Shown here: positions 7,302 through 51,396 of the stretch, one piece after another
Layout: each line of letters begins with the position of its first letter
Numbering within the stretch: position 1 is the stretch's first letter
From: Gordius sp. MW1
Lineage: Eukaryota > Nematomorpha > Gordioida > Gordea > Gordiidae
Assembly (NCBI GenBank): GCA_964036665.1
Contig: OZ038527.1
Location: forward strand, 8,339,835-8,403,834
DNA: 64,000 nt
Direction: 5' to 3'
Notes under the pieces: generated by a model
The model's database searches: none
Told to the model about the DNA's origin: nothing
Seen by the model: the letters and a program-made list of their open reading frames with translations, nothing else
Position numbers and translations under genes: made by a program

Positions 7302-7367
7302 AAATTTTGCTGATTAAGAAACCTCTCCAAAAATTATAATAAGATCCAAAATTCAAATTCAAGAACT
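7302..7367 (+). other. Probable 5' UTR of VAChT after a splice acceptor
   Basis: A pyrimidine-rich tract ending in tatatcctctag gives a good 3' splice site, so the VAChT exon probably starts at 7302. In other animals VAChT mRNA is made by splicing a shared upstream cholinergic exon onto the VAChT exon. The shared exon itself was not identified. Confidence 0.5.
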
Positions 7368-9668
7368 ATGTTGCTAAGGAATGTATTGACATCATTTATG
7401 GATGCCTTTCAAAACGTTCGTTATGTTATAGAGGCTCAAGTAGTGGATCCTAAAACGCGACAATTGTTTGTTCTTCTCATAGTTTGCGTTGCACTTCTAC
7501 TTGACAACATGTTGTACATGGTCATAGTACCTATCATACCTGACTATTTAAAAACGTTGTACGAATCATCGCACACCACTATAAATACTGAGGTCTCGTC
7601 AACTATAAGTTTAAGCAGTCCAACCACAAAACCTATTGAGCTAACGTTTGAAAAAGTTAAGGGGCTAAGATATCGTTATGCACGTGATTATTTCGGCTCT
7701 ATTACAAACGGTTTGCAGCGGCGCAACGCATTAAATAACCGCTTTAAAAGACAAAATGGCGCAGGTAGAAGACGGCCTAAGGTTTACAAAACGACCTTAT
7801 CAACAGAGGCTGCAGAATATGAGTATTATTATGTTGATGAAGACGAACCCATTAATGCCACTCATACCTTGGCCCCTAGAATACTAACAAATCAATTTAC
7901 CACTTCCATAGCAGCGGCTACCTACACCAATCAAACATTAAACCTTGACATAAAACAAACATATACCGAGCCCACAGCTATAACGTCCACATCATATAAG
8001 GTCACGAGTGTCAAACAGAAAGTTGTTGCAAAAGTGGAGGAGCACGATTTACACATTGGAATTTTATTTGCGTCAAAAGCAATTATTCAACTATGTATAA
8101 ATCCTTTTTCAGGCGCAATTATTGATAGAGTTGGATACGACAGGCCATTGTTATTTGGTCTGATAATAATGTTTGCCTCAACTGTATTTTTTGCCTTTTC
8201 CCGAACATATGGGGCTCTTTTCTTTGCAAGGAGCCTCCAAGGACTGGGTTCGGCATTTGCTGATACAGCTGGGTTAGCGATGATTGCCGATCAATTTAAA
8301 ATAGAAGCCGAAAGGAGCAAGGCCCTAGGATGGGCTCTTGCATGTATTTCATTTGGATCTTTAATTGCTCCTCCTTTTGGAGGAATACTATATCAATTTG
8401 TGGGGAAAAAGGTACCCTTTCTGGTCCTATCAGGTATTGCATTGGCGGATGCAATTTTTCTTGCCTTTGTGATGCGAGAAATTCATAAAAAGCACCAAGA
8501 ACATCGTCGGACCTTGAGCGTTAGCGGCAGGGGAAGTCGGGGTGCAAGTTTGAAAAGATCAAAAAGTGGAAAGAACGGTGGGACAAGCATAGGAGATGTG
8601 TCTCAGAGATCCTCTTTTGTAAGCCAAAAGGGAGGCAGTGTCAAGAACCACCTTCGCATGAACAATAGAGATGAATCGTCTAATGATCTATACGAGCCTT
8701 TCTCCAGACCGGGGGCTGGAACGGGCAATTTACTTTTACCTCCTGTCCAACCGACCCCCATATATCGCCTCCTACTCGACCCTTATATAGCAATAACTGC
8801 TGGAGCTTTAAGCATGTCTAACGTTTCCTTAGCATTTTTGGAGCCAACCATAGCTGTTTGGATGCAGGATACTATGAAGGCGTCTGAATGGCAAATTGGC
8901 CTAGTTTGGTTCTTTGGATTTCCACCACATTTGATCGGTGTATACACAACAGTTCGTTTGGCAAGAGCTTACCCTAAATATCAATGGTTCATGGCAGCAG
9001 TTGGCCTAGCAATTGAAGGCGTAAGTTCCTTCTTGGTACCCCTATGTAGAACGTACTGGGCCTTGATAGTCCCCATCAGCGGTATATGTTTTGGAATAGC
9101 TTTGGTAGATACTGCTTTGCTACCGACATTAGGCTACGTAGTAGATCTATTTTATGTTTCGATATACGGAAGTGTCTACGCTATAGCAGACATATCATAT
9201 TGCCTAGCCTATGCGTTTGGCCCAGTACTGGCCAGTCGAGCCATGCGTGACATGGGATTTCTAAATATGAATATTGGCATAGCCATGAGTAGTATAATAT
9301 ATGCCCCACTGTTGATCTTACTCAAAAACATTTACACCTATAAACCCCTTGATGAATTTGATGACGATGTTTATGACGATAACGACAATTTTGAGGATAG
9401 CAATTACGCCCTCAAGTCCAATGATAGAATGAACCGAATGGCAAACAAGGACTTTACCAACCATCATCCTCAAGGCTACCACAATTTTCCAGTTGAAGCT
9501 ACTCCGCTTACTAGTCAGGGATATCAAAATCGTATCGTTGATCCACAATTTAATGCCACCCGTCGAAATTCGGATGGTAGGGAGGGTAATCTGTTAGATT
9601 TTTCTGGAGAAACTCAAGACATAATTCATGGATCAGGTGTGACTTACATTCCATACATGACAAAATAA
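7368..9668 (+). CDS. VAChT: Vesicular acetylcholine transporter (SLC18 family, UNC-17/VAChT)
   Basis: This is a proton/acetylcholine antiporter of the major facilitator superfamily that loads acetylcholine into synaptic vesicles. The single uninterrupted ORF encodes 766 residues, as expected for the intronless VAChT exon. TM1 (about 33-60) carries the hallmark LLLDNMLYMVIVPIIP with the conserved Asp46. The MFS loop motif GAIIDRVGYDRP is at 249-260. The TM10-TM11 block includes ALVDTALLPTLGYVVD (578-593) and YGSVYAIADISYCLAY (600-615). The protein is long: most family members have roughly 530-600 residues. The excess is mainly a TM1-TM2 luminal loop of about 165 residues (61-225), with sequons NATH and NQT, a basic RFKR site and an acidic tyrosine cluster, plus a basic/Ser-rich cytosolic loop (372-465) and an acidic C-terminal tail with a LeuLeu pair (742-743). 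ChAT follows on the same strand. VMAT is a less likely alternative because the TM1 signature and the ChAT linkage favour VAChT. Confidence 0.96.
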   Translation: MLLRNVLTSFMDAFQNVRYVIEAQVVDPKTRQLFVLLIVCVALLLDNMLYMVIVPIIPDYLKTLYESSHTTINTEVSSTISLSSPTTKPIELTFEKVKGLRYRYARDYFGSITNGLQRRNALNNRFKRQNGAGRRRPKVYKTTLSTEAAEYEYYYVDEDEPINATHTLAPRILTNQFTTSIAAATYTNQTLNLDIKQTYTEPTAITSTSYKVTSVKQKVVAKVEEHDLHIGILFASKAIIQLCINPFSGAIIDRVGYDRPLLFGLIIMFASTVFFAFSRTYGALFFARSLQGLGSAFADTAGLAMIADQFKIEAERSKALGWALACISFGSLIAPPFGGILYQFVGKKVPFLVLSGIALADAIFLAFVMREIHKKHQEHRRTLSVSGRGSRGASLKRSKSGKNGGTSIGDVSQRSSFVSQKGGSVKNHLRMNNRDESSNDLYEPFSRPGAGTGNLLLPPVQPTPIYRLLLDPYIAITAGALSMSNVSLAFLEPTIAVWMQDTMKASEWQIGLVWFFGFPPHLIGVYTTVRLARAYPKYQWFMAAVGLAIEGVSSFLVPLCRTYWALIVPISGICFGIALVDTALLPTLGYVVDLFYVSIYGSVYAIADISYCLAYAFGPVLASRAMRDMGFLNMNIGIAMSSIIYAPLLILLKNIYTYKPLDEFDDDVYDDNDNFEDSNYALKSNDRMNRMANKDFTNHHPQGYHNFPVEATPLTSQGYQNRIVDPQFNATRRNSDGREGNLLDFSGETQDIIHGSGVTYIPYMTK

Positions 9669-11691: not shown

Positions 11692-14600
11692 GTAATATTT
11701 TTTTACATACGATATATTAATTTTTCTAAACGTGATGGCTGAAATTCTAATTGGCAAATAACAAGATTTTTTTTATAATGAATAATATTTTGCACTGTAA
11801 GGAATTAACAATTTTCTGCTAAACTTATTGTTAATTAACGAGTAAAATAATTCATTATCAGTGATTTGTTTTTGATCCTTTTTTTATAAAGCAATAAAAA
11901 TAATAAAATTATTGCACTAAAACCATCGTGCTTATGTAAAAATTTTATTATGAAGGCTCGCATTCCAATTTATAGGTTTTGTTCAATTGGTATCGTATGA
12001 CTTTTGATTTATGATGATCGAATTTAATTAAATTGTCAGCAGTATGGAAACTAAATATATCTCGTCCAATTATCCTTGTCATGATAATTCCAACGATGGT
12101 CCTCAAATAAATTATACACTATTTTTATATATAAGCATAGTGTCACCACAAGTCGCTATTTGAATTTATGAAAAAAATTTTATTGAGATTATTAAAAAAG
12201 ATATACACGCAATCGTTCTTAATATACCCCTACAGCCATATAAATGATTTAAAACAATGCATATGTCTATCAATTAATTATTTAATTTTTATTCCTTTAT
12301 TTGATCACTAACTCTTATAATCTTGAGACTTTTTCGATTGATTTCACCCAATCTATCTTCATGTTTTTGATTGAAAAGCGACATTTCAGACTATTGATTG
12401 TGTATCTTTTTCTGAGTATCTTGAGGTTATGCGACTTTGCAATATAATTTAGTAAACTTTAAATTTCAACTCATTCGAAATGCCAGGCTTTTAAATATAA
12501 CTTTTTTTTAGTAATTGCTTACCATTATGAACAAAGCGCGATCTTGTAATAGTATGCTTATATCTTTAATTAACGGTCAACTTAGAACCAAGACCAAAAA
12601 GTGTTTTGTGGTTAAGGGCATATTTAATTTATAGATTTGCATGCTAAAATGCATTTTTGAATTTTGCCTGCTCAAATATATATAAGATAAGTCTAAAAGC
12701 TCCTGATATTTCAAACTTATACAATTACCGATAAACTATGGAAAACTGAGAGCACAAGCTTAATGTAAATTTTTTTTAGCTCTATTCGTCTCATTCAGCT
12801 TAATCAACGTGTTTTTCATTTTATACAAAAGGAATTAGTCTCATAAAAATATAGCTGTAATTTTAGACATTCATTAGTCATTATGAGTGATTTAAAAATT
12901 CATTCCAAATTTAATAATAATAACAAAAACTCGGGCCTTCGGCCCTCGTGGGAAGGGGGAGAAGGGAAGGGAAGGGAAGGGAAGAGGGGAAGGGAAGGGG
13001 GGACGACTCATCTGTACTTCGTATAAATGTATCATATTTGCTATGCAATTTATGGGCGGGAAAGGTGGGAAGGGGCGAGAATGCCTATAGGGGGGGGGTA
13101 TTAAATGCCTGATGATTAATTAATTATTTATACAAATTTTCCATTTATAGGCAAAATGTAATATAGGCAAAATGTAATATAGACAAGGGTTAGGGTTAGA
13201 TTTAGTGTTTGCATCTAGTTGCGTATTACATTAGTTTTTATGGCCTTCAGTGATTATGGGTCTAACAAACATTATATTATAAAACAATTTGCAGAATTGA
13301 TGGGAGAAATTTTTCGTTGAATTTGAACAATTTTTAATTAAAAAAATCAAAAATTTGGCCAATGGTCATTTTTTCTCTATTGGTCAGTACCAACATATAC
13401 TCTATAAGTCAATGATAGCCAAAAAAAACGAAAAAAAAAATTTTGATGCTCACTTTGGTTAATGGTCATTTTTTCCATTGGTCAGCAGCCAGCACACGGT
13501 AAAAGTGGATATAAATTCATAAGAGTAAAAAAAACGAAAATAAAAGTTTTCGAATCACATTTTGGCCAATGGTCATTTTTTCCATCGGTCAGGAGCCAGC
13601 GGACGGCCAAAAAGTCATAATAGCAATGGTAGTAACAGGAACAATCATAATAGTCAAAAAAAAACGAAAAAATAAACTCGGATTCACATTTTGGCCAATG
13701 GTCATTTTTTCCATCGGTCAGGAGCCAGCGGACGGCCAAAAAGTCATAATAGCAATGGTAGGAACAGGAACAATCATAATAGTCAAAAAAAAACGAAAAA
13801 TTAAACTCGGATTTACATTTTGGCCAATGGTCATTTTTTCCATCGGTCAGGAGCCAGCGGACGGCCAAAAATTCTTATTATCAATGATAGTAACAAGAAC
13901 AATCATAAGAGTCAAAAAAAACTCCGAGATTCTAACCCAAAAACTAGTTAAATTGCATAGCAATTAAAAGTAAACAACTTTTATTTATGTTTATTATATA
14001 ACATTGGTCAGCAGCCAGCGGACGGCCAAAAAGTCAAAATAGCAATGGTAGGAACAGGAACAATCATAATAGTCAAAAAAAACGAAAAAAATAATTTCGA
14101 TTCACATTTTGGCCATTGGTCATTTTTTCCATCGGTCAGGAGCCAGCGGACGGCCAAAAATTCTTATTATCAATGTTAGTAACAAGAACAATCATAAGAG
14201 TCAAAAAAAACTCCGGGATTCTAACTAAAAAACTAGTTAAATTGCATAGCAATTAAAAGTAAACAACTTTTATTTATGTTTATTATATAACTAGTTAAAT
14301 TGCATAGCAATTAAAAATAAACAACTTTTATTTATGTTCATTATATAATAGATAATTTAACAAATCTTATATATAACACACCGAGGGAGATAGAGATGAG
14401 GGGTGGGGCACCTCTTATGCATTAATTTTAAAAATAACACAGCGAGGGAGATAGAGATGAGGGGTGGGGCACCTCTTTCTCATGCATTAATTTAAAAAAT
14501 CGATAACCTAATATACCCAATGCAAATAGATAGGGATGGACGGACAGACAGACGGACAGACAGACGGACGGACGGACGGACAACCAAAAACGAGCCCATA

Positions 14601-17600
14601 AATTGCATAGCAATTAAAAGATATTCCTAATTCTCTAGCTTCAAATATTGTTGAATTTTAAAATAACTTTAACTATAGATACAGTGCTCATGAGCGTTGC
14701 CAGGATTGGAGATAGGGGGAAATTTAATGGTTTTAGGACGGGCACAGTGACAATTTTTTGAAATTTATAACCTTTTAAAAAAAATTTGGATTTAGAGGGT
14801 GGCAGTTGCCCCTCCCTGCCTCGTTCTGGCTAAGTCTATGCAACTGCTAGTGTGTATTAAGCTCTTAATATTATTGATTAAAACTTGTATTTTATTCTGG
14901 GTCTTGTAAAAACATATTTATATTGTGAATGCATAGCATCTGATTTGGGAATGGACAAAAATTATTATTAACAAATTTTTCTGCGAAATATACATCATTT
15001 TCAATAGGGTTGAAAAATGCCTTTACGGATTCTCACGTTATTCGAGATCATCAGTTTAAATGAACTAATTATTTTTTAGCCAATTTTATAATACATATTC
15101 CGAATTTTTTTGGAAGGCTTATGACATTTGGTTGCAAGATATGTACTTGTCGTGGAGAATACCCTTGCCGATAAATTTCAATCCCGGCATGGTCATGCCA
15201 CAACAAAATTTTCCTGACAATGATTCATTTTGCTTGTAAACATTAGTTTTATATAAAAATTTAATTTTATCCAACGCAAAATTATTGTCAATGTTTTCAT
15301 AAATCATAGATATGCATCAAAGGTGGTTTACATGATCCTTAACTTCAAGCAAATGATTGAAAGGTTTGTTTTTAATTATGTACAAAAAACGTTAAAATAA
15401 ATCAGTACTATTTGACACTTCTTATTTTGTTTTATTATATGTTAATACAACTCGACTTCAAAAGTCAAAAACTTTTGTAATTTTTTAAAACTTCAAATTT
15501 TTCTAGTTTTTAAAATTTCCAAGCTGGCAACAAAATATAGACTCCAGCTTTTAAAAATGTAGAAAGATTAACCCCGAGTTTGTACTTTAAAATTGATTGG
15601 ATTTTAAGATTTCTTGAATTTAAAAACACCTGCTCCATTCTTTTTTGCAATATAATGCTAGAAATATACATTTAGTAATCTACATAATATGTAGGGTGTT
15701 CAATTAAATTATATAATGATTATTAGCAACAAATTGGATATGGATCTCGTGAGTGAAAAGTATCGTCAGCACCTATGCATGAAACAGTATCAGCATTTAT
15801 TCGACTGTTACCGTTGCCCGGGTATAGAGAGGGATAAATGGTTATTCGCACCCCATAACTCATCTCACATCGTAGTTATGCATCAAAACAAAGTTAATTT
15901 TATAGCGGTTAATTATTGTAGTTCATTTTGGTTGACTTTTTTGGACGGTATTTGCCCCATAAATTTAAAACTAATTCATAATCTTGATTTTATACAATTT
16001 GAGGCTCCTTAAAGATTATAAGCTCTAATAGAACAAGTAAGAAGCTGATAGTGGTTTTCTGTCATATACATGGGCGTAGCCAGGGGGTGCAGAGAGGGGC
16101 GGCTGCCCCCTTTAAATACAAAAATTTGTTGAAATTTATTAAAATTATGGCTAAAATTTCAAAAAATTATCATTTTGCCCCTCCCTAATCCCAATGCTGT
16201 ACGCCCATGGTCATATATTGATCGCTATTTGCATTATAGTTTGCATTAATGCGATGAAATGCCAATAATGTTCATTATTAATCAATTGGCCTATTTTGAA
16301 CAGAACCAATGAGTTTTTTGCTAACATTCCTTAAAATTATTTTTATCGAATTTTACAGTCATCGCAATTTTTTAAAAGGCGTATAAAGTCGATGTTCTTG
16401 AGCATAAGCAAATTTCCCCTTTATCATCAATCTATGGAGCGCTAAATCAAATTACTTCGATCAAAAACTCCTTAAATACCGGCGAAGTGACATCTGTTGA
16501 TCATTCTGTTGGATATTTGACTACAGGACAGAGGGGAAAGTGGGCAGCGTTTAGACAAGAGCTTTTAATTGGTTTCAAATTTGATTTACTTAAATTTTGA
16601 ATTGTCTAGAAATACTAAAATATTTATAAGATGGTTAAATTTAGTTGTTACCTTTATGCATCCTAAATGTATCTTGCAATTTATTTAATGATGTTAATTA
16701 AATTTTAATCTATTATTTAATTATGCATAAGGTAGTGATGATTAACAATTTATTATCAGTAGATAATTAATATAACTTTGCATATATTTATATTATAGAT
16801 ACAAAATAAATTTAGAATATTGAATTTTATAGACGAAAGCAACGCACAAAATTTGGAAATTTTACAAACTTGCCTGTTCGTGCTATGTTTGGACGAGATG
16901 GTCGAGGCTGAACAAAACAATTTTGATGAAAGTGAATTGAACAAAGATACAAATAATCATAATTTCATGGGTGATGATCATTTCGCAAGTTACCGATCAA
17001 ACAAATTGTTCAAAATGGTGATGCAAGAAAGTAAGCAAGCCAAAAAGTATGACATTTGGCCTGAACATAAACGAACCGAGGAGTCTATGTTTTTGCAAGC
17101 TAATAATGGTGCTGGCATTAAACACAATTCTGGAAACCGATGGTTCGATAAAACATTACAGGTTATTGCTGCAGGTCATATAATTTGTGTCTTAATAGGT
17201 TGTTCAACGCACATGGGCGTAGCCAAGGGGGTCGCCCCCCCTAAATTACGAAAAAAAGAAATTTTCAATGCAAAAAATTTGAAAAATTAAAAAAATTTAT
17301 GTTTTGCCCCTCTAAACTTTTAAACATTTTGCCCCCCTCCCTAATCCAAAACCTGGCTACGCCCATGGCAATGTACCATTTGAAAGCAATAATCAACGAA
17401 AAAATATTTTTTCTACAATCTCATCGTTGTCAAAATTATTAAATAGGTGTCAGGAAAAAGTATTAACATGGTCATGCCTACTTTGTGCCAGGCCTCTATT
17501 TTTAAACAGAAACATATTATATTAAAATATAATAAATAATCAGCTATGCTACGCCCTTCCTGGTAGTGAGAATAAAACATGTTTTTATCGTTAAACATAA

Positions 17601-31386: not shown

Positions 31387-33341
31387 ACATACATACATAC
31401 ATACATACATACATACATACATACATACATACATACATACATACATACATACATACATACATACATACATACATACATACATACATACATACATACATAC
31501 ATACATACATACATACATACATACATACATACATACATACATACATACATACATACATACATACATACATACATACATACATACATACATACATACATAC
31601 ATACATACATACATACATACATACATACATACATACATACATACATACATACATACATACATACATACATACATACATACATACATACATACATACATAC
31701 ATACATACATACATACATACATACATACATACATACATACATACATACATGCATGCATGCATACATACATACATACATACATACATACATACATACATAC
31801 ATACATACATACATACATACATACATACATACATACATACATACATACATACATACATACATACATACATACATACATACATACATACATACATACATAC
31901 ATACATACATACATACATACATACATACATACATACATACATACATACATACATACATACATACATACATACATACATACATACATACATACATACATAC
32001 ATACATACATACATACATACATACATACATACATACATACATACATACATACATACATACATACATACATACATACATACATACATACATACATACATAC
32101 ATACATACATACATACATACATACATACATACATACATACATACATACATACATACATACATACATACATACATACATACATACATACATACATACATAC
32201 ATACATACATACATACATACATACATACATACATACATACATACATACATACATACATACATACATACATACATACATACATACATACATACATACATAC
32301 ATACATACATACATACATACATACATACATACATACATACATACATACATACATACATACATACATACATACATACATACATACATACATACATACATAC
32401 ATACATACATACATACATACATACATACATACATACATACATACATACATACATACATACATACATACATACATACATACATACATACATACATACATAC
32501 ATACATACATACATACATACATACATACATACATACATACATACATACATACATACATACATACATACATACATACATACATACATACATACATACATAC
32601 ATACATACATACATACATACATACATACATACATACATACATACATACATACATACATACATACATACATACATACATACATACATACATACATACATAC
32701 ATACATACATACATACATACATACATACATACATACATACATACATACATACATACATACATACATACATACATACATACATACATACATACATACATAC
32801 ATACATACATACATACATACATACATACATACATACATACATACATACATACATACATACATACATACATACATACATACATACATACATACATACATAC
32901 ATACATACATACATACATACATACATACATACATACATACATACATACATACATACATACATACATACATACATACATACATACATACATACATACATAC
33001 ATACATACATACATACATACATACATACATACATACATACATACATACATACATACATACATACATACATACATACATACATACATACATACATACATAC
33101 ATACATACATACATACATACATACATACATACATACATACATACATACATACATACATACATACATACATACATACATACATACATACATACATACATAC
33201 ATACATACATACATACATACATACATACATACATACATACATACATACATACATACATACATACATACATACATACATACATACATACATACATACATAC
33301 ATACATACATACATACATACATACATACATACATACATACA

Positions 33342-33371
<30 letters not shown>
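31387..33371. repeat. (CATA)n microsatellite, about 496 units
   Basis: 1985 bp of uninterrupted acat/cata repeats. The only deviations are three A-to-G changes spaced four bases apart at 31751, 31755 and 31759. The repeat contains no stop codon on either strand in most frames, so it gives artificial open frames of more than 500 codons (HTYI or MYVC repeats). These are not genes. Confidence 0.97.
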
Positions 33372-40783: not shown

Positions 40784-41567
40784 TTAGTCTTTTAATAGTA
40801 GTTCATTACGCCTTTTACTCGATGTTGCAAACGAATTTATAATATCTTCCGGGGGAATAACATTTATAAAGTCATGTTCTAAGCTCAATAAAGCTAAGGA
40901 AGATAACCTATCTTGTCCAATTGTGGAACGAAGATAAATTTTAATCCGTTTTAGCAGTGAGAACGATCTTTCGCATGAACCTAAAGTTATTGGGATAGTT
41001 AAAATTATTTTAAGCAAAATAATACAATTTGGAAACACTACTGAGGGCAAAATTTTAATAAGTGAAAAAATATCATTGCATTTTATTTTATTTGAAGATA
41101 AAGAGTTATAATGTTTTACAAAAAATGTTGCCATATTTATTTCGCCGTCTTCCAGTTTTAATTCATAATGGTTAATTATTTCTGATAAAAGAGATTTATC
41201 GCAAAAGGATGAAGGGTTTAAACCTTCTAAGGACTTAAATAAATTACAATTAATTTTCGAAAATCTTATGTTTGATTCTGCTATTATTCTATCAATGATA
41301 GGATAATATAAATCAATTTTGAAATCAATTAATGAATTAGTAGATTCAAAAGAGTAAAATGTGTCATATTTTTTGGTTTTTTAATACGTTTAGAAGGTAA
41401 TAAATCAAAAATTGCAGCTAAATCTTTTGCCTTATTATAAAGAATTTGATAGTGGTCCTCATTTCTAATATCATTTAAAGTTAATATTAGGCTATTAACC
41501 GTTGTAATTGCATTTATTAAACAAATATTTGGGCTTTGAAACTCGTTAATTAAAACTTTTATTCAGA
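40784..41567 (-). pseudogene. hAT transposase remnant (ZMYM1-like C-terminal half)
   Basis: Reading leftward, it begins FQSPNICLINAITTVNSLIL, runs through KAKDLAAIFDLLPSKRIKK, then SLLSEIINHYELKLEDGEIN, and ends with the hAT dimerisation-domain signature TLGSCERSFSLLKRIK and LSSLALLSLEHD. A single missing A in an A-run near 41370-41376 shifts the frame; on either side both frames stay open and similar to the family. The zinc-finger and N-terminal catalytic parts are absent. The element's own inverted repeats enclose it. Confidence 0.9.
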
Positions 41568-46640: not shown

Positions 46641-47352
46641 TTAATGTTTATAAGCATTTATGTAGCTAAAACGTTTGAAGGTCGAAGACTATTCAAATTG
46701 AGAGTATTTGCTAGGCATTTCGTCTTTAAGCAAAATAGTTTAGAAATTTTCTTATGAAGCCCTAACATTTAAGTTTTGTATTAAATAGACGATGGTTAAG
46801 AAGTTTTAAGTTTATGTATTAAAATATTTGAATATTTATTCAATATTATATTGATTCAGATTTAGAAACAAAATAGCCATTGTCGCTTCTGATTACCTAT
46901 CCTTCGAAATATATATTGCAGAATAATTTGTAAAATTCCTAAAAAGTAGGATTAAATATGCAAAATTTTGGAGATTCTTTAATCGATTTATGAATTGGGC
47001 TGGATCAACCAAAGGGAAATTATTACATATAATCTAACCGGTGGGAGAAAATAGAAAAATTAAAGCTTACCAGGAACTTTGATTATTAACAAATAGAACA
47101 TTTGTATGCTTCACGTTATTATAAAAAATTATTCAAAAAGTTTCCAATTTGTATAATTTGAAAAATAACTGATTTTTGCGCAGCATTAATAAATAAGATA
47201 CGAAATATTTATAAGGTTGTCTATAATTGCTCAAAAAATTGATTAACTTAATGGAACATTAATGTTGTTAATAAGCAGAACAATGAATTCTAAAAGTAAA
47301 CATCGAAAGATTATATACTGACGATGACCGCGACTGATAATTAAATTTCGTA
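46641..47352. other. AT-rich DNA, no gene seen
   Basis: Non-coding stretch between unit B and composite element copy 2. Nothing recognised. Confidence 0.4.
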
Positions 47353-50300
47353 TTTTAATTGCTATGCAATTTATGGGCTCGTTTTTGGTTGTCCGTTGTC
47401 CGTTACCCTATCTATTTGCATTGGGTATATTAGGTTATCGATTTTTAATTGCTATGCATGAGAAAGAGGTGCCCCACCCCTCATCTCTATCTCCCTCGCT
47501 GTGTTATTTTTAATTGCTATGCATAAGGCTACGTCTTAATACGCGCTACAACTTCAAGCCCGCAATTTTTTTTTCTGTCCAAATACGCGCTTCACGTTTC
47601 ATGGATACAATTACTTTATTAATCATTTTACATGTTTAGGATTGAAGTTTAGAAAATAAATATACATTATCAACTTAATATATTGTTATTAATGTTTAGG
47701 ATTGTCAAGTTTAGAAAATAAATATACATTTTATTGTCTACAATATCAACTTAATATGTTGTTATTAATGTTTAGATTGTCAAGTTTAAAATAAATATAC
47801 ATTATCAACTTAATATATTAGATTAATGTTTAGGATTGTCAAGTTTAGAAAATAAATATAGATTATCAACTTAATATATTGTTATTAATGTTTAGGATTG
47901 TCAAGTTTAGTAAATAAATATACATTTTATTGTCTACTATATCAACTTAATATATTGTTATAAATGTTTAGGATTGTCAAGTTTAGTAAATAACTATAAT
48001 TAAGCTTATACTTCAAAATACACATACCATTTTATTAGTATTTAATATAAAATAAATCATAAACATCAATTAGTTTTCAAATAATGTAGAACATTTAGTT
48101 TAAACAAAAATTTATTAGCCTACCAGACTTAAAGTGTGAAATTTTTAAGATTTAGTATACTTAAAACTCCTATAAATACAAAGCTTAAAAAGGCTGAAAA
48201 GATAGTTCAGGGTATTTGTTCACTACAAAATGTACTGATAATAAAGCTTTGCCTATATATGATTATGAGATTAACAATAACAATACATAACAGTGTGCGT
48301 CTTAATACGCGCTTTTGTAGCTAGCTTGAAAAAGCGAATGCATGTTAAAACATAGACGCGTCTTAATACGAGCGTCACGTCATTTTTGTAGTTTTGCCGT
48401 ATCAACTCAACCGCGATCAACAAGCTACAAGCTATTGAGTAAGCTATTACTGCGACCTAATATGTTTACATAGATAGACAAGATCAAGTAAAAACATTAT
48501 TAAGAAGTGTGGAAAGGCACATGAAAAGCTCCACATGAATAATTGAATGGAATAAGCCTGGGGTTTGGTGGCCACATAATGCAACTTGGCTGGTAACTAG
48601 TGTCAATTAAAATACTAACTTTAAAAGTGGATTATTGCAAAACTAAATGGAAAACACTCTGAAGAAAATAGACATAGAGACAGAGAAGCAAAGAATTCTT
48701 AGGATTTGGAAAAGACATTCCTTGATTCTCTTCTTCAAGTTTTAAAGCCTTATCTGATCCCAATAAATTTTTGTTAATAAATGTTTTACAAAACTTGTAT
48801 TTTTACATGAATAAAGTATTAAAATTATTGGAATATGAACAAATATCTCATATCTCTCTAGCTTGTTGGGTTGAAAGATATTTTCAACTGTTAGGTATTG
48901 TTATTGTTAATCTCATAATCATATATAGGCAAAGCTTTATTATCAGTACATTTTGTAGTGAACAAATACCCTAAACTATCTTTTCAGCCTTTTTAAGCTT
49001 TGTTTTTATAGGAGTTTTAAGTATACTAAATCTTAAAAATTTCACACTTTAAGTCTGGTAGGCTAATAAATTTTTGTTTAAACTAAATGTTCTACATTAT
49101 TTGAAAACTAATTGATGTTTATGATTTATTTTATATTAAATACTAATAAAATGGTATGTGTATTTTGAAGTATAAGCTTAATTATAGTTATTTACTAAAC
49201 TTGACAATCCTAAACATTAATAACAATATATTAAGTTGATATTGTAGACAATAAAATGTATATTTATTTACTAAACTTGACAATCCTAAACATTAATACA
49301 ATATATTAAGTTGATAATCTATATTTATTTTCTAAACTTGACAATCCTAAACATTAATCTAATATATTAAGTTGATAATGTATATTTATTTTAAACTTGA
49401 CAATCTAAACATTAATAACAACATATTAAGTTGATATTGTAGACAATAAAATGTATATTTATTTTCTAAACTTGGCAATCCTAAACATTAATAACAATAT
49501 ATTAAGTTGATAATGTATATTTATTTTCTAAACTTGACAATCCTAAACATGTAAAATGATTAATAAAGTAATTGTATCCATGAAACGTGAAGCGCGTATT
49601 TGGACAGAAAAAAAAATTGCGGGCTTGAAGTTGTAGCGCGTATTAAGACGTAGCCTAAGAGGTGCCCCACCCCTCATCTCTATCTCCCTCGCTGTGTTAT
49701 ATATAAGATTTGTTAAATTATCTATTATATAAACATAAATAAAAGTTGTTTACTTTTAATTGCTATGCAATTTAACTAGTTATATAATAAGCATAAATAA
49801 AAGTTGTTTACTTTTAATTGCTATGCAATTTAACTAGTTTTTGTTATATAATAAACATAGATAAAAGTTGTTTACTTTTAATGCTATGCAATTTAACTAG
49901 TTATATAATAAACATAAATAAAAGTTGTTTACTTTTTAATTGCTATGTAATTTAACTAGTTTTGGGGTTAGAATCCCGGAGTTTTTTTTGACTCTTATGA
50001 TTGTTCTTGTTACTATCATTGATAATAAGAATTTTTGGCCGTCCGCTGGCTGCTGACCAATGAAAAAAATGACCATTGGCCAAAATGTGAATCGAAATTA
50101 TTTTTTTCGTTTTTTTTTGACTATTATGATTGTTCCTGTTTCTACCATTGCTATTATGACTTTTTGGCCGTCCGCTGGCTGCTGACCAATGTTATATAAT
50201 AAACATAAATAAAAGATGTTTACTTCTAATTGCTATGCAATTTAACTAGTTTTGGGGTTAGAATCCCGGAGTTTTTTTTGACTCTTATGATTGTTCTTGT

Positions 50301-51396
50301 TACTATCATTGATAATAAGACTTTTTGGCCGTCCGCTGGCTGCTGACCAATGAAAAAAATGACCATTGGCCAAAATGTGAATCCGAGTTTATTTGTTCGT
50401 TTTTTTTTTAACTATTATGATTGTTCCTGTTACTACCATTGCTATTATGACTTTTTGGCCGTCCGTTGGCTGCTGACCAATGGAAAAAATGACCATTGGC
50501 CAAAATGTGAATCGAAATTATTTTTTTCGTTTTTTTTGACTATTATGATTGTTCCTGTTCCTACCATTGCTATTATGACTTTTTGGCCGTCCGCAGGCTG
50601 CTGACCAATGGAATAAAATGACCATTGACCAAAATGTGATTCGAAAATTGTTTTTTCGTTTTTTTTTGACTATTATAAATTTATATCCACTTTTACCGTG
50701 TCCTGCCTGCTGACCAATGGAAAAAAATGACCATTGGCCAAAATGTGATTCGAAATTTTTTTTTTCGTTTTTTTTTACTATTATGAATTTATATCCACTT
50801 TTACCGTGTCCTGGCTGCTGACCAATGGAAAAAAATGACCATTGGCCAAAATGTGTTTCGAAAATTTTTTTTTCCGTTTTTTTGGCTATCATTGACTTAT
50901 AGAGTATCTGTGGGTACTGACCAATAGAGAAAAAGTGACCATTGGCCAAATTTTTGATTTTTTTAATTAAAAATTGTTCAAATTCAACAAAAAATTTCTC
51001 CCAACAATTCTGCAAATTCTTAACATTGTGTTGTTTTATAATATAATGTTTGTTAGACCCATAATCACTAAAGGCCATAAAAACTAATGTAATACGCAAC
51101 TAGATGCAAACACTAAATCTAACCCTTGCCTATATTACATTTTGCCGTTATTACATTTTGCCTATAATGGAAAATTTGTATAAATAATTTATTAATCATT
51201 AGGCATTTAATACCCCCCTATAGGCATTCTCGCCCCTTCCCACCTTTCTCGCCCATAAATTGCATAGCAAATATGATACATTTATACGAAGTACAGATGA
51301 GTCGTCCCCCCTTCCCTTCCCCTCTTCCCTTCCCCTCTTCCCTTCCCCTCTTCCCTTCCCTTCTCCCCCTTCCCACGAGGGTCGAAGGCCCGAGTT
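47353..51396 (-). repeat. Composite tandem-repeat element, copy 2, split by a foldback element
   Basis: Inverted relative to copy 1 and collinear with it: terminal ttttaattgctatgcaatttatgggctcg (positions 47353-47381), gaggtgccccacccctcatc units, ~58-bp units with aattgctatgcaattt (about 49750-49975), the ~129-bp units with gaccattggccaaaatgtga (about 49980-50880), the ggcaaaatgtaata region (about 51130-51170), the cccttcccctctt tract (51307-51371) and the gtcgaaggcccgag end. The foldback element at 47527-49655 interrupts it. Confidence 0.88.
47527..49655. mobile_element. Foldback element with ~760-bp inverted arms and TAA duplication
   Basis: Left arm 47527-48286 and right arm 48895-49655 are near-perfect reverse complements. 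Arms begin GGCTACGTCTTAATACGCGC and contain about six copies of a 60-75-bp unit (tttaggattgtcaagtttag..). The 608-bp loop carries further gtcttaatacgcg strings. TAA flanks both ends (47524-47526, 49656-49658). The empty site (atgcataagaggtgcccc, read on the minus strand near 14410-14425) survives in composite copy 1. No transposase inside. The TAA duplication and GGC ends suggest mobilisation by a PIF/Harbinger-type enzyme. Confidence 0.9.

Follow-up and report, generated by a model that had tools for sequence, protein, structure and literature searches.

Foldback elements are known from several transposon superfamilies, but how they originate has mostly been inferred from established families. 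The following background is taken from the accessible parts of the papers cited. Galileo, a foldback of Drosophila, is defined by a 7-bp target duplication and a P-type THAP transposase (PMC3573991, PMC3688188), and arm extension as well as chimeric arms have been described for it (PMC3573991). For Tetris, another foldback of Drosophila, the authors suggest a place in the Mutator superfamily (PMC4079207). PIF/Harbinger elements have a two-gene layout, in which the transposase is accompanied by a second, Myb/SANT/MADF-like gene (PMC9710019). Tourist/PIF/Harbinger elements are believed to excise by staggered cuts within their target duplications, leaving a break that is end-joined (PMC4561436). 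For inverted-repeat transposons of animals, others have proposed that templates are switched when gaps are filled or forks stall; the accessible text does not name Harbinger (PMC8277862). Judged by titles and the beginnings of abstracts, none of the matches listed in the literature searched reports a Harbinger foldback.

Here we describe an element of 2,129 bp (positions 47527-49655) in a window of 64,000 nt, the whole stretch of Gordius sp. MW1 DNA that was analysed. An initial annotation, made from the sequence alone, took the element for a foldback transposon that combines foldback architecture with PIF/Harbinger-type ends in a new way. We consider it, with a probability of about 0.8, to be a one-off chimeric copy of a non-autonomous PIF/Harbinger family of ~1.36 kb. 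This reading and its rivals on route and mobility overlap, the rivals also with one another.

Results

Architecture of the element

Pairwise alignment of the two arms of ~768–769 bp (770 × 770 bases) gave 762 matches, 6 mismatches and 4 gap columns. At 1,376 positions of the element, the reverse complement of the 14-mer also occurs inside it, whereas 200 mononucleotide shuffles had 1.44 such positions on average and never more than 10. An array of ~60–75-bp subrepeats is visible in both arms and spans about half of each, and arms built of tandem subrepeats are a trait expected of foldback families. Counted in an ordinary sister copy (L012), the array has six units, five full and one partial. 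This confirms the near-perfect inverted arms with about six such units that were first described, while the loop, originally given as 608 bp, measures 592 bp.

Both outer ends of the element read GGCTACGTCTTAATACGCGC. The initial annotation had this sequence right, but the two ends are the 3′ end of the family, present twice. The family's own 5′ end (GGGTGCGTC...) is internal, at the left edge of the loop, and lacks its first two bases. An otherwise ordinary copy thus starts at its base 3 and is separated from the left TAA by an inverted 3′ arm of ~768 bp, and the two outward 3′ ends together with the spoiled 5′ end produce the look of a foldback. Judged by eye, decayed remains of a MADF-like frame, which is carried by a transposase-bearing relative (see below), persist in the loop.

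Table 1. Features of the probably chimeric element and its flanking duplications (positions in the window).
Feature	Position	Strand	Evidence
Left TAA target-site duplication	47524..47526	+	Empty host site is GCATAAGAGGTG
Left arm, inverted 3′ part of a family member, six subrepeats, older-lineage alleles	47527..48294	-	Arm alignment; 6/6 diagnostic columns
Left-arm subrepeat array, unit ~60–75 bp	47632..47998	+	Repeat analysis
Transposase remnant within left arm	48127..48246	+	C1:8387961-8388080, E 9.2e-5, 55% identity, 1 stop
Junction of inverted arm (...AACAGT) to base 3 of family 5′ end (GTGCG...)	48294..48295	+	Single genomic place, ≤3 mismatches
Ordinary non-autonomous element minus first two bases (GG)	48295..49655	+	27 sister loci (L010–L036) match (nearly) full length
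Foldback "loop", 5′ part of ordinary element, 592 bp	48295..48886	+	DNA match
Decayed Harbinger transposase remnant	48827..49054	-	C1:8388661-8388888, E 1.7e-5, 46% identity, 4 stops
Right arm, native 3′ part of ordinary element	48887..49655	+	Younger allele at 4/6 diagnostic columns
Right-arm subrepeat array	49180..49550	+	Unit single in transposase-bearing relative
Right TAA target-site duplication	49656..49658	+	Sequence

Ordinary members of the family

A genome search for the element's ends with alignment of all copies had been proposed at the outset. In the genome surveyed (211.8 Mb, 12 contigs) the exact 3′ end occurs 41 times (21 + 20) and the exact 5′ end GGGTGCGTCTTAATACGCGC 56 times (24 + 32); the sister copies that could be delimited are 1.34–1.37 kb long. 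Ordinary copies run from 5′ GGGTGCGTCTTAATACGCGC to 3′ GCGCGTATTAAGACGTAGCC, mostly between TAA or TTA duplications, and have one arm each, with six tandem units in the 3′ half. Because they are one-armed, the arm with the subrepeats is nothing other than the 3′ half that a normal non-autonomous copy has. Foldback is not the architecture of this family, and a foldback class of a new combination finds no support.

Searching with the whole element, with 40 of 585 candidates scored, yielded at least 94 match rows, among which only the window copy spans query positions 1–2129. The 27 rows L010–L036 start at query 742–772, around the left edge of the loop. Among 29 fetched sister copies, 24 could be delimited and are 1,339–1,365 bp long. 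In nearly all delimitable loci the left end GGGTGCGTC... directly follows TAA or TTA, and a perfect TWA duplication is present in 19 of the 24 (TAA in 11, TTA in 8). When these 19 sites are oriented to TTA, the preceding base is C in 13 and the following base G in 12. The other five comprise L028, which is one base off, L016, L019 and L024, which lack the right-hand repeat, and the nested copy L015; five further loci with a mutated or interrupted end (L031, L034, L036, L037, L038) were omitted from the count. Duplications of another length in other copies had been named in advance as evidence against the first interpretation: the 19 are 3-bp TAA or TTA, and L015 has TTAA.

In L015 (C2:14181114-14185478), one family copy is inserted in the 3′ end of a second one and is flanked on either side by TTAA; the terminal motif of the family (CTTAATAC) is therefore itself a usable target.

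The right arm of the window element shows a single substitution (gaps uncounted) in 769 columns when compared with five sister copies. By this measure, the non-autonomous PIF/Harbinger family of ~1.36 kb is young.

Assignment to PIF/Harbinger and a transposase-bearing relative

DDE_Tnp_4 gave 49 match rows in the genome, 30 of which were fetched as loci. One of 2,462 bp (C6:9476509-9478970) has the same two ends as the family and a TAA duplication, and contains a DDE_Tnp_4 transposase (PF13359, 95 bits) whose frame is broken by a TGA. The longer open piece matches DDE_Tnp_4 with an E of 3.3e-24, and the shorter piece of 40 residues matched no family on its own. On the opposite strand a 53-residue piece shows a marginal match to PF10545 (MADF; E 2e-4, 22.1 bits against a cut-off of 22, positions 1–37 of 84). 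Transposase and MADF-like piece together would fit the two-gene layout of the superfamily. The terminal inverted ends GGGTGCGTCTTAATACGCGC and GGCTACGTCTTAATACGCGC are identical at 18 of 20 positions by count, and the 3-bp TWA duplication of PIF/Harbinger is found both at the window element, as TAA, and in the 19 sisters. Judged by these sequence features, the window element can be assigned to PIF/Harbinger. The duplications and the same-ended relative with its DDE_Tnp_4 transposase bear out the original attribution to this superfamily. For the autonomous element with the same ends, which was also to be looked for, the 2,462-bp transposase-bearing copy is a candidate, but its transposase is interrupted by the stop.

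An ordinary copy (L012) is 85% identical to the relative over its first 362 bp and 95% over its last 105 bp, and many ordinary elements, the window body included, retain a decayed piece of the relative's transposase. The order is not collinear: positions 622–724 of the ordinary element match 1296–1399 of the relative and stand ahead of positions 852–964, which match 1036–1147. Thus, we regard the 2,462-bp copy as a relative and not as the direct parent. The relative has a single subrepeat unit, compared to six in the ordinary element, which places the array before the foldback.

Similar ends (CGTCTTAATATACGC) are also found at three further loci of related Harbinger elements (L039, L042, L055), in which transposase frames of 237, 237 and 199 residues, respectively, are open; L039 and L042 stand for related subfamilies, and their ends look nearly identical.

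Search for further foldbacks

The 24-mer across the foldback junction has no second place in the genome at ≤3 mismatches. Among the 41 exact 3′ ends, no facing pair lies within 10 kb except that of the window, and the next pair is 22.5 kb apart. Foldback families are expected to have several copies; here we found one, a single end-to-end match among at least 94 match rows. With a junction unique at ≤3 mismatches, no other facing exact 3′ ends within 10 kb and one-armed sisters, a foldback transposon family was rejected.

A single copy could still be a true foldback transposon, in which the chimeric form is mobile, was excised by its two 3′ ends and was inserted here by a Harbinger transposase, with sisters elsewhere, in other individuals or in unassembled DNA. 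The perfect TAA duplication and the two intact outer 3′ ends, which keep the terminal motif of the family, are what such a mobile form would have. We nevertheless consider it unlikely, as neither a second junction nor another facing pair was found within the limits given above and as the duplication would be expected anyway if the foldback arose inside an ordinary insertion. More doubtful still is the stronger version, in which the two 3′ ends are a working pair and the chimeric event, with arms from two subfamilies, founded a new lineage of mobile PIF/Harbinger foldbacks. If true, the mobile form would be the Harbinger counterpart of a Galileo-type foldback origin, caught at copy number one.

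Origin of the two arms

We aligned the two window arms with 37 other arms, from 29 loci (L010–L038) and 8 fragments (L075–L082); the remaining whole-element matches stand outside this alignment. Six columns separate an older lineage from a younger one that has expanded. At each of them the left arm carries the older allele, and the right arm has the younger allele at four and the older one at the neighbouring columns 467 and 469. All six older alleles are found in L034–L038 (5 of 5). The more diverged L075–L081 have the older allele at many of the columns that can be scored but not at every one (at column 442, two of the seven have it, L079 and L081), and the younger copies L021 and L023 have it at one column each. 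On these six columns, the two arms seem to derive from different parental lineages. We prefer different parents because, after a duplication within the element, the arms should agree at every one of the six columns. The odd columns 467 and 469 suggest a short conversion between the arms, or else that the body branched off the younger lineage ahead of the latest changes in it.

In a tree of 35 of the 39 rows (rows of <551 letters were dropped), the right arm (WIN_R) falls within a 27-row set (94/96) and the left arm (WIN_L) outside it; L080 is placed among the younger copies. The window arms were united in 0% of 200 bootstrap trees, in a bootstrap that had not settled and with no branch starred. 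By plain distance, the left arm is most similar to the right arm of the same element, with 6 substitutions in 767. Younger copies differ from the left arm at 7 of about 766 columns (L017 at 7 of 764), and L036 does so at 6 of 681. On these distances the left arm is not clearly nearer the older lineage. The comparison cut the body from 48297 and the left arm to 48296, which leaves two extra bases at columns 0–1, outside the diagnostic columns. The left arm has private changes at columns 133, 363 and 685–686, and no donor identical to it is present among the 37 other arms. By tree path its nearest row is L036, a disturbed copy whose exact 3′ end sits 161 bases before its main match. That end reads TAA|GGC, so a 5-nt TAAGG match is available. 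In the 5′ part no column diagnostic of lineage was found, and the lineage of the body therefore rests on its 3′ part.

These data also bear on an origin within one element, in which a copy duplicated its own 3′ arm in inverted form and the right arm was later converted by copies of the younger lineage. This would explain why both arms have the older allele at columns 467 and 469 and why the left arm is most similar overall to the right arm. It requires, however, conversion of the right arm at four of the six columns with two skipped in the middle, where simple duplication predicts equality at all six, and the bootstrap trees never joined the arms. We therefore give it little credence, and a purely within-element duplication was rejected, since the arms differ at diagnostic columns.

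Alternatively, two copies may have stood head to head and lost the DNA between them, including the 5′ half of one copy, possibly after the outer 3′ ends had moved as a composite transposon. The order of an inverted arm followed by a complete copy agrees with this. Such a pair exists 22.5 kb apart at C5:16429145/16451634, with L036, the copy closest to the left arm in tree path, as one of the two. Its other half, L026, is 10 substitutions away from the window body, compared to 4 for L011 and L012, and is not among the seven sharers of the body allele at column 536. The junction moreover lies two bases inside the 5′ end, a place that a random deletion would seldom strike. We regard this deletion route as improbable. 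The L036/L026 pair was rejected as direct parents, as L026 is unfit for the body. Insertion of a complete copy into an inverted one at a TWA site was also rejected, because the junction ...AACAGT|GTGCG shows no TWA duplication and two 5′ bases are missing.

Insertion site

The empty-site pattern TATGCATAAGAGGTGCCCC was found at 2,156 places (1,081 + 1,075) with ≤1 mismatch, and at none with the reversed control pattern. Six of these loci were fetched, and their surroundings are the same host repeat as at the window insertion site; being chosen by the pattern itself, they show the empty site by construction and are no independent count. Outside the set picked by TATGCATAAGAGGTGCCCC, the second host-repeat copy of the window reads an uninterrupted GCATAAGAGGTG near 14414 (minus strand). 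With TAA on both sides and an empty site in the host repeat elsewhere, the TAA duplication and the clean insertion hold. The preserved empty site reported initially is thus real, and the statement that the duplication proves a clean insertion stands for insertion at this site, but it is silent on whether the foldback form itself has jumped.

The left host flank and its TAA are those of an ordinary insertion, and the inverted arm starts with GG, the two bases that the body lacks. Hairpin reads and misjoins are known to give inverted duplications as assembly or library artefacts, and a single copy could raise that suspicion. We consider an artefact very improbable, as the left flank is the host sequence expected there instead of repeating the right flank in reverse complement, and as the arms show, besides gaps, 6 mismatches and alleles specific to different lineages.

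The host repeat lies at ~47340–51160 and ~12950–14640 (minus) in the window, is very abundant and has internal tandem units of ~129 bp. Three of its copies (window, L016 and L024) bear a family member at the same site, and L016 and L024 are without the right-hand duplication. Elsewhere the window holds an almost perfect 2-kb ACAT microsatellite of about 496 units (31387–33371), a one-exon open frame of 784 aa that by eye resembles a vesicular amine/acetylcholine transporter (7314–9668), and an open frame (40784–41380, minus) with what we take, by eye, to be a hAT-like C-terminal motif.

Discussion

Taken together, on present evidence the window foldback is a single rearranged copy and not a new type of transposon. 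We infer the route from the product, the event itself being unobserved; template switching or gap repair was probably involved, and for template switching alone we put the chances at about even. In the simplest path, an ordinary copy would first have been resident at the TAA of the host repeat. At its 5′ end a break, for instance after cutting by a transposase, or a stalled fork would then have called for repair, and an excision break of the Tourist/PIF/Harbinger kind could be the starting event. A new strand ending in ...TAAGG may have switched to the 3′ end of another copy reading TAAGG... and copied the arm of that copy inward for ~768 bp. End joining without overlap would finally have linked the copied arm to base 3 of the 5′ end; we saw no microhomology at this inner junction. 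Such a path would leave a 3′ end facing outward on either side and a spoiled 5′ end inside.

For PIF/Harbinger, the steps from an ordinary element to a foldback can here be read nearly directly, because the family is young, the parts are largely separable by lineage and the target duplication is intact. The locus also indicates that a subrepeat array in foldback arms can predate the foldback, as the array is already present in ordinary copies and its unit is single in the relative.

With PIF/Harbinger and Tourist-like non-autonomous elements the family shares 3-bp TWA duplications, inverted ends starting with GG and, in the relative, a DDE_Tnp_4 transposase, to which the marginal MADF/Myb-like piece may add the second gene. 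It differs from them in the extra inverted 3′ arm of the window copy and in the six-unit array of ordinary copies. Tetris likewise has long inverted arms with tandem units, but its accessible description gives duplications of 8–10 bp and several copies, compared to 3 bp and one copy here (PMC4079207). Galileo, with its "recombinant-TIR" and chimeric copies, is also a cut-and-paste element that recruited internal sequence into long, internally repetitive arms, and it too has chimeric arms from two subfamilies and a foldback look (PMC3573991). It belongs to a different superfamily, P, and the 3-bp duplication and DDE_Tnp_4 relative of the window family set the latter apart from it. In the available text long arms are the rule in Galileo, whereas here they occur in one copy, and its two-subfamily chimeras are without matching duplications, unlike the window copy (PMC3573991). 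Within the accessible parts of these sources, Galileo is the nearest published precedent that we found for arm extension combined with chimeric arms (PMC3573991).
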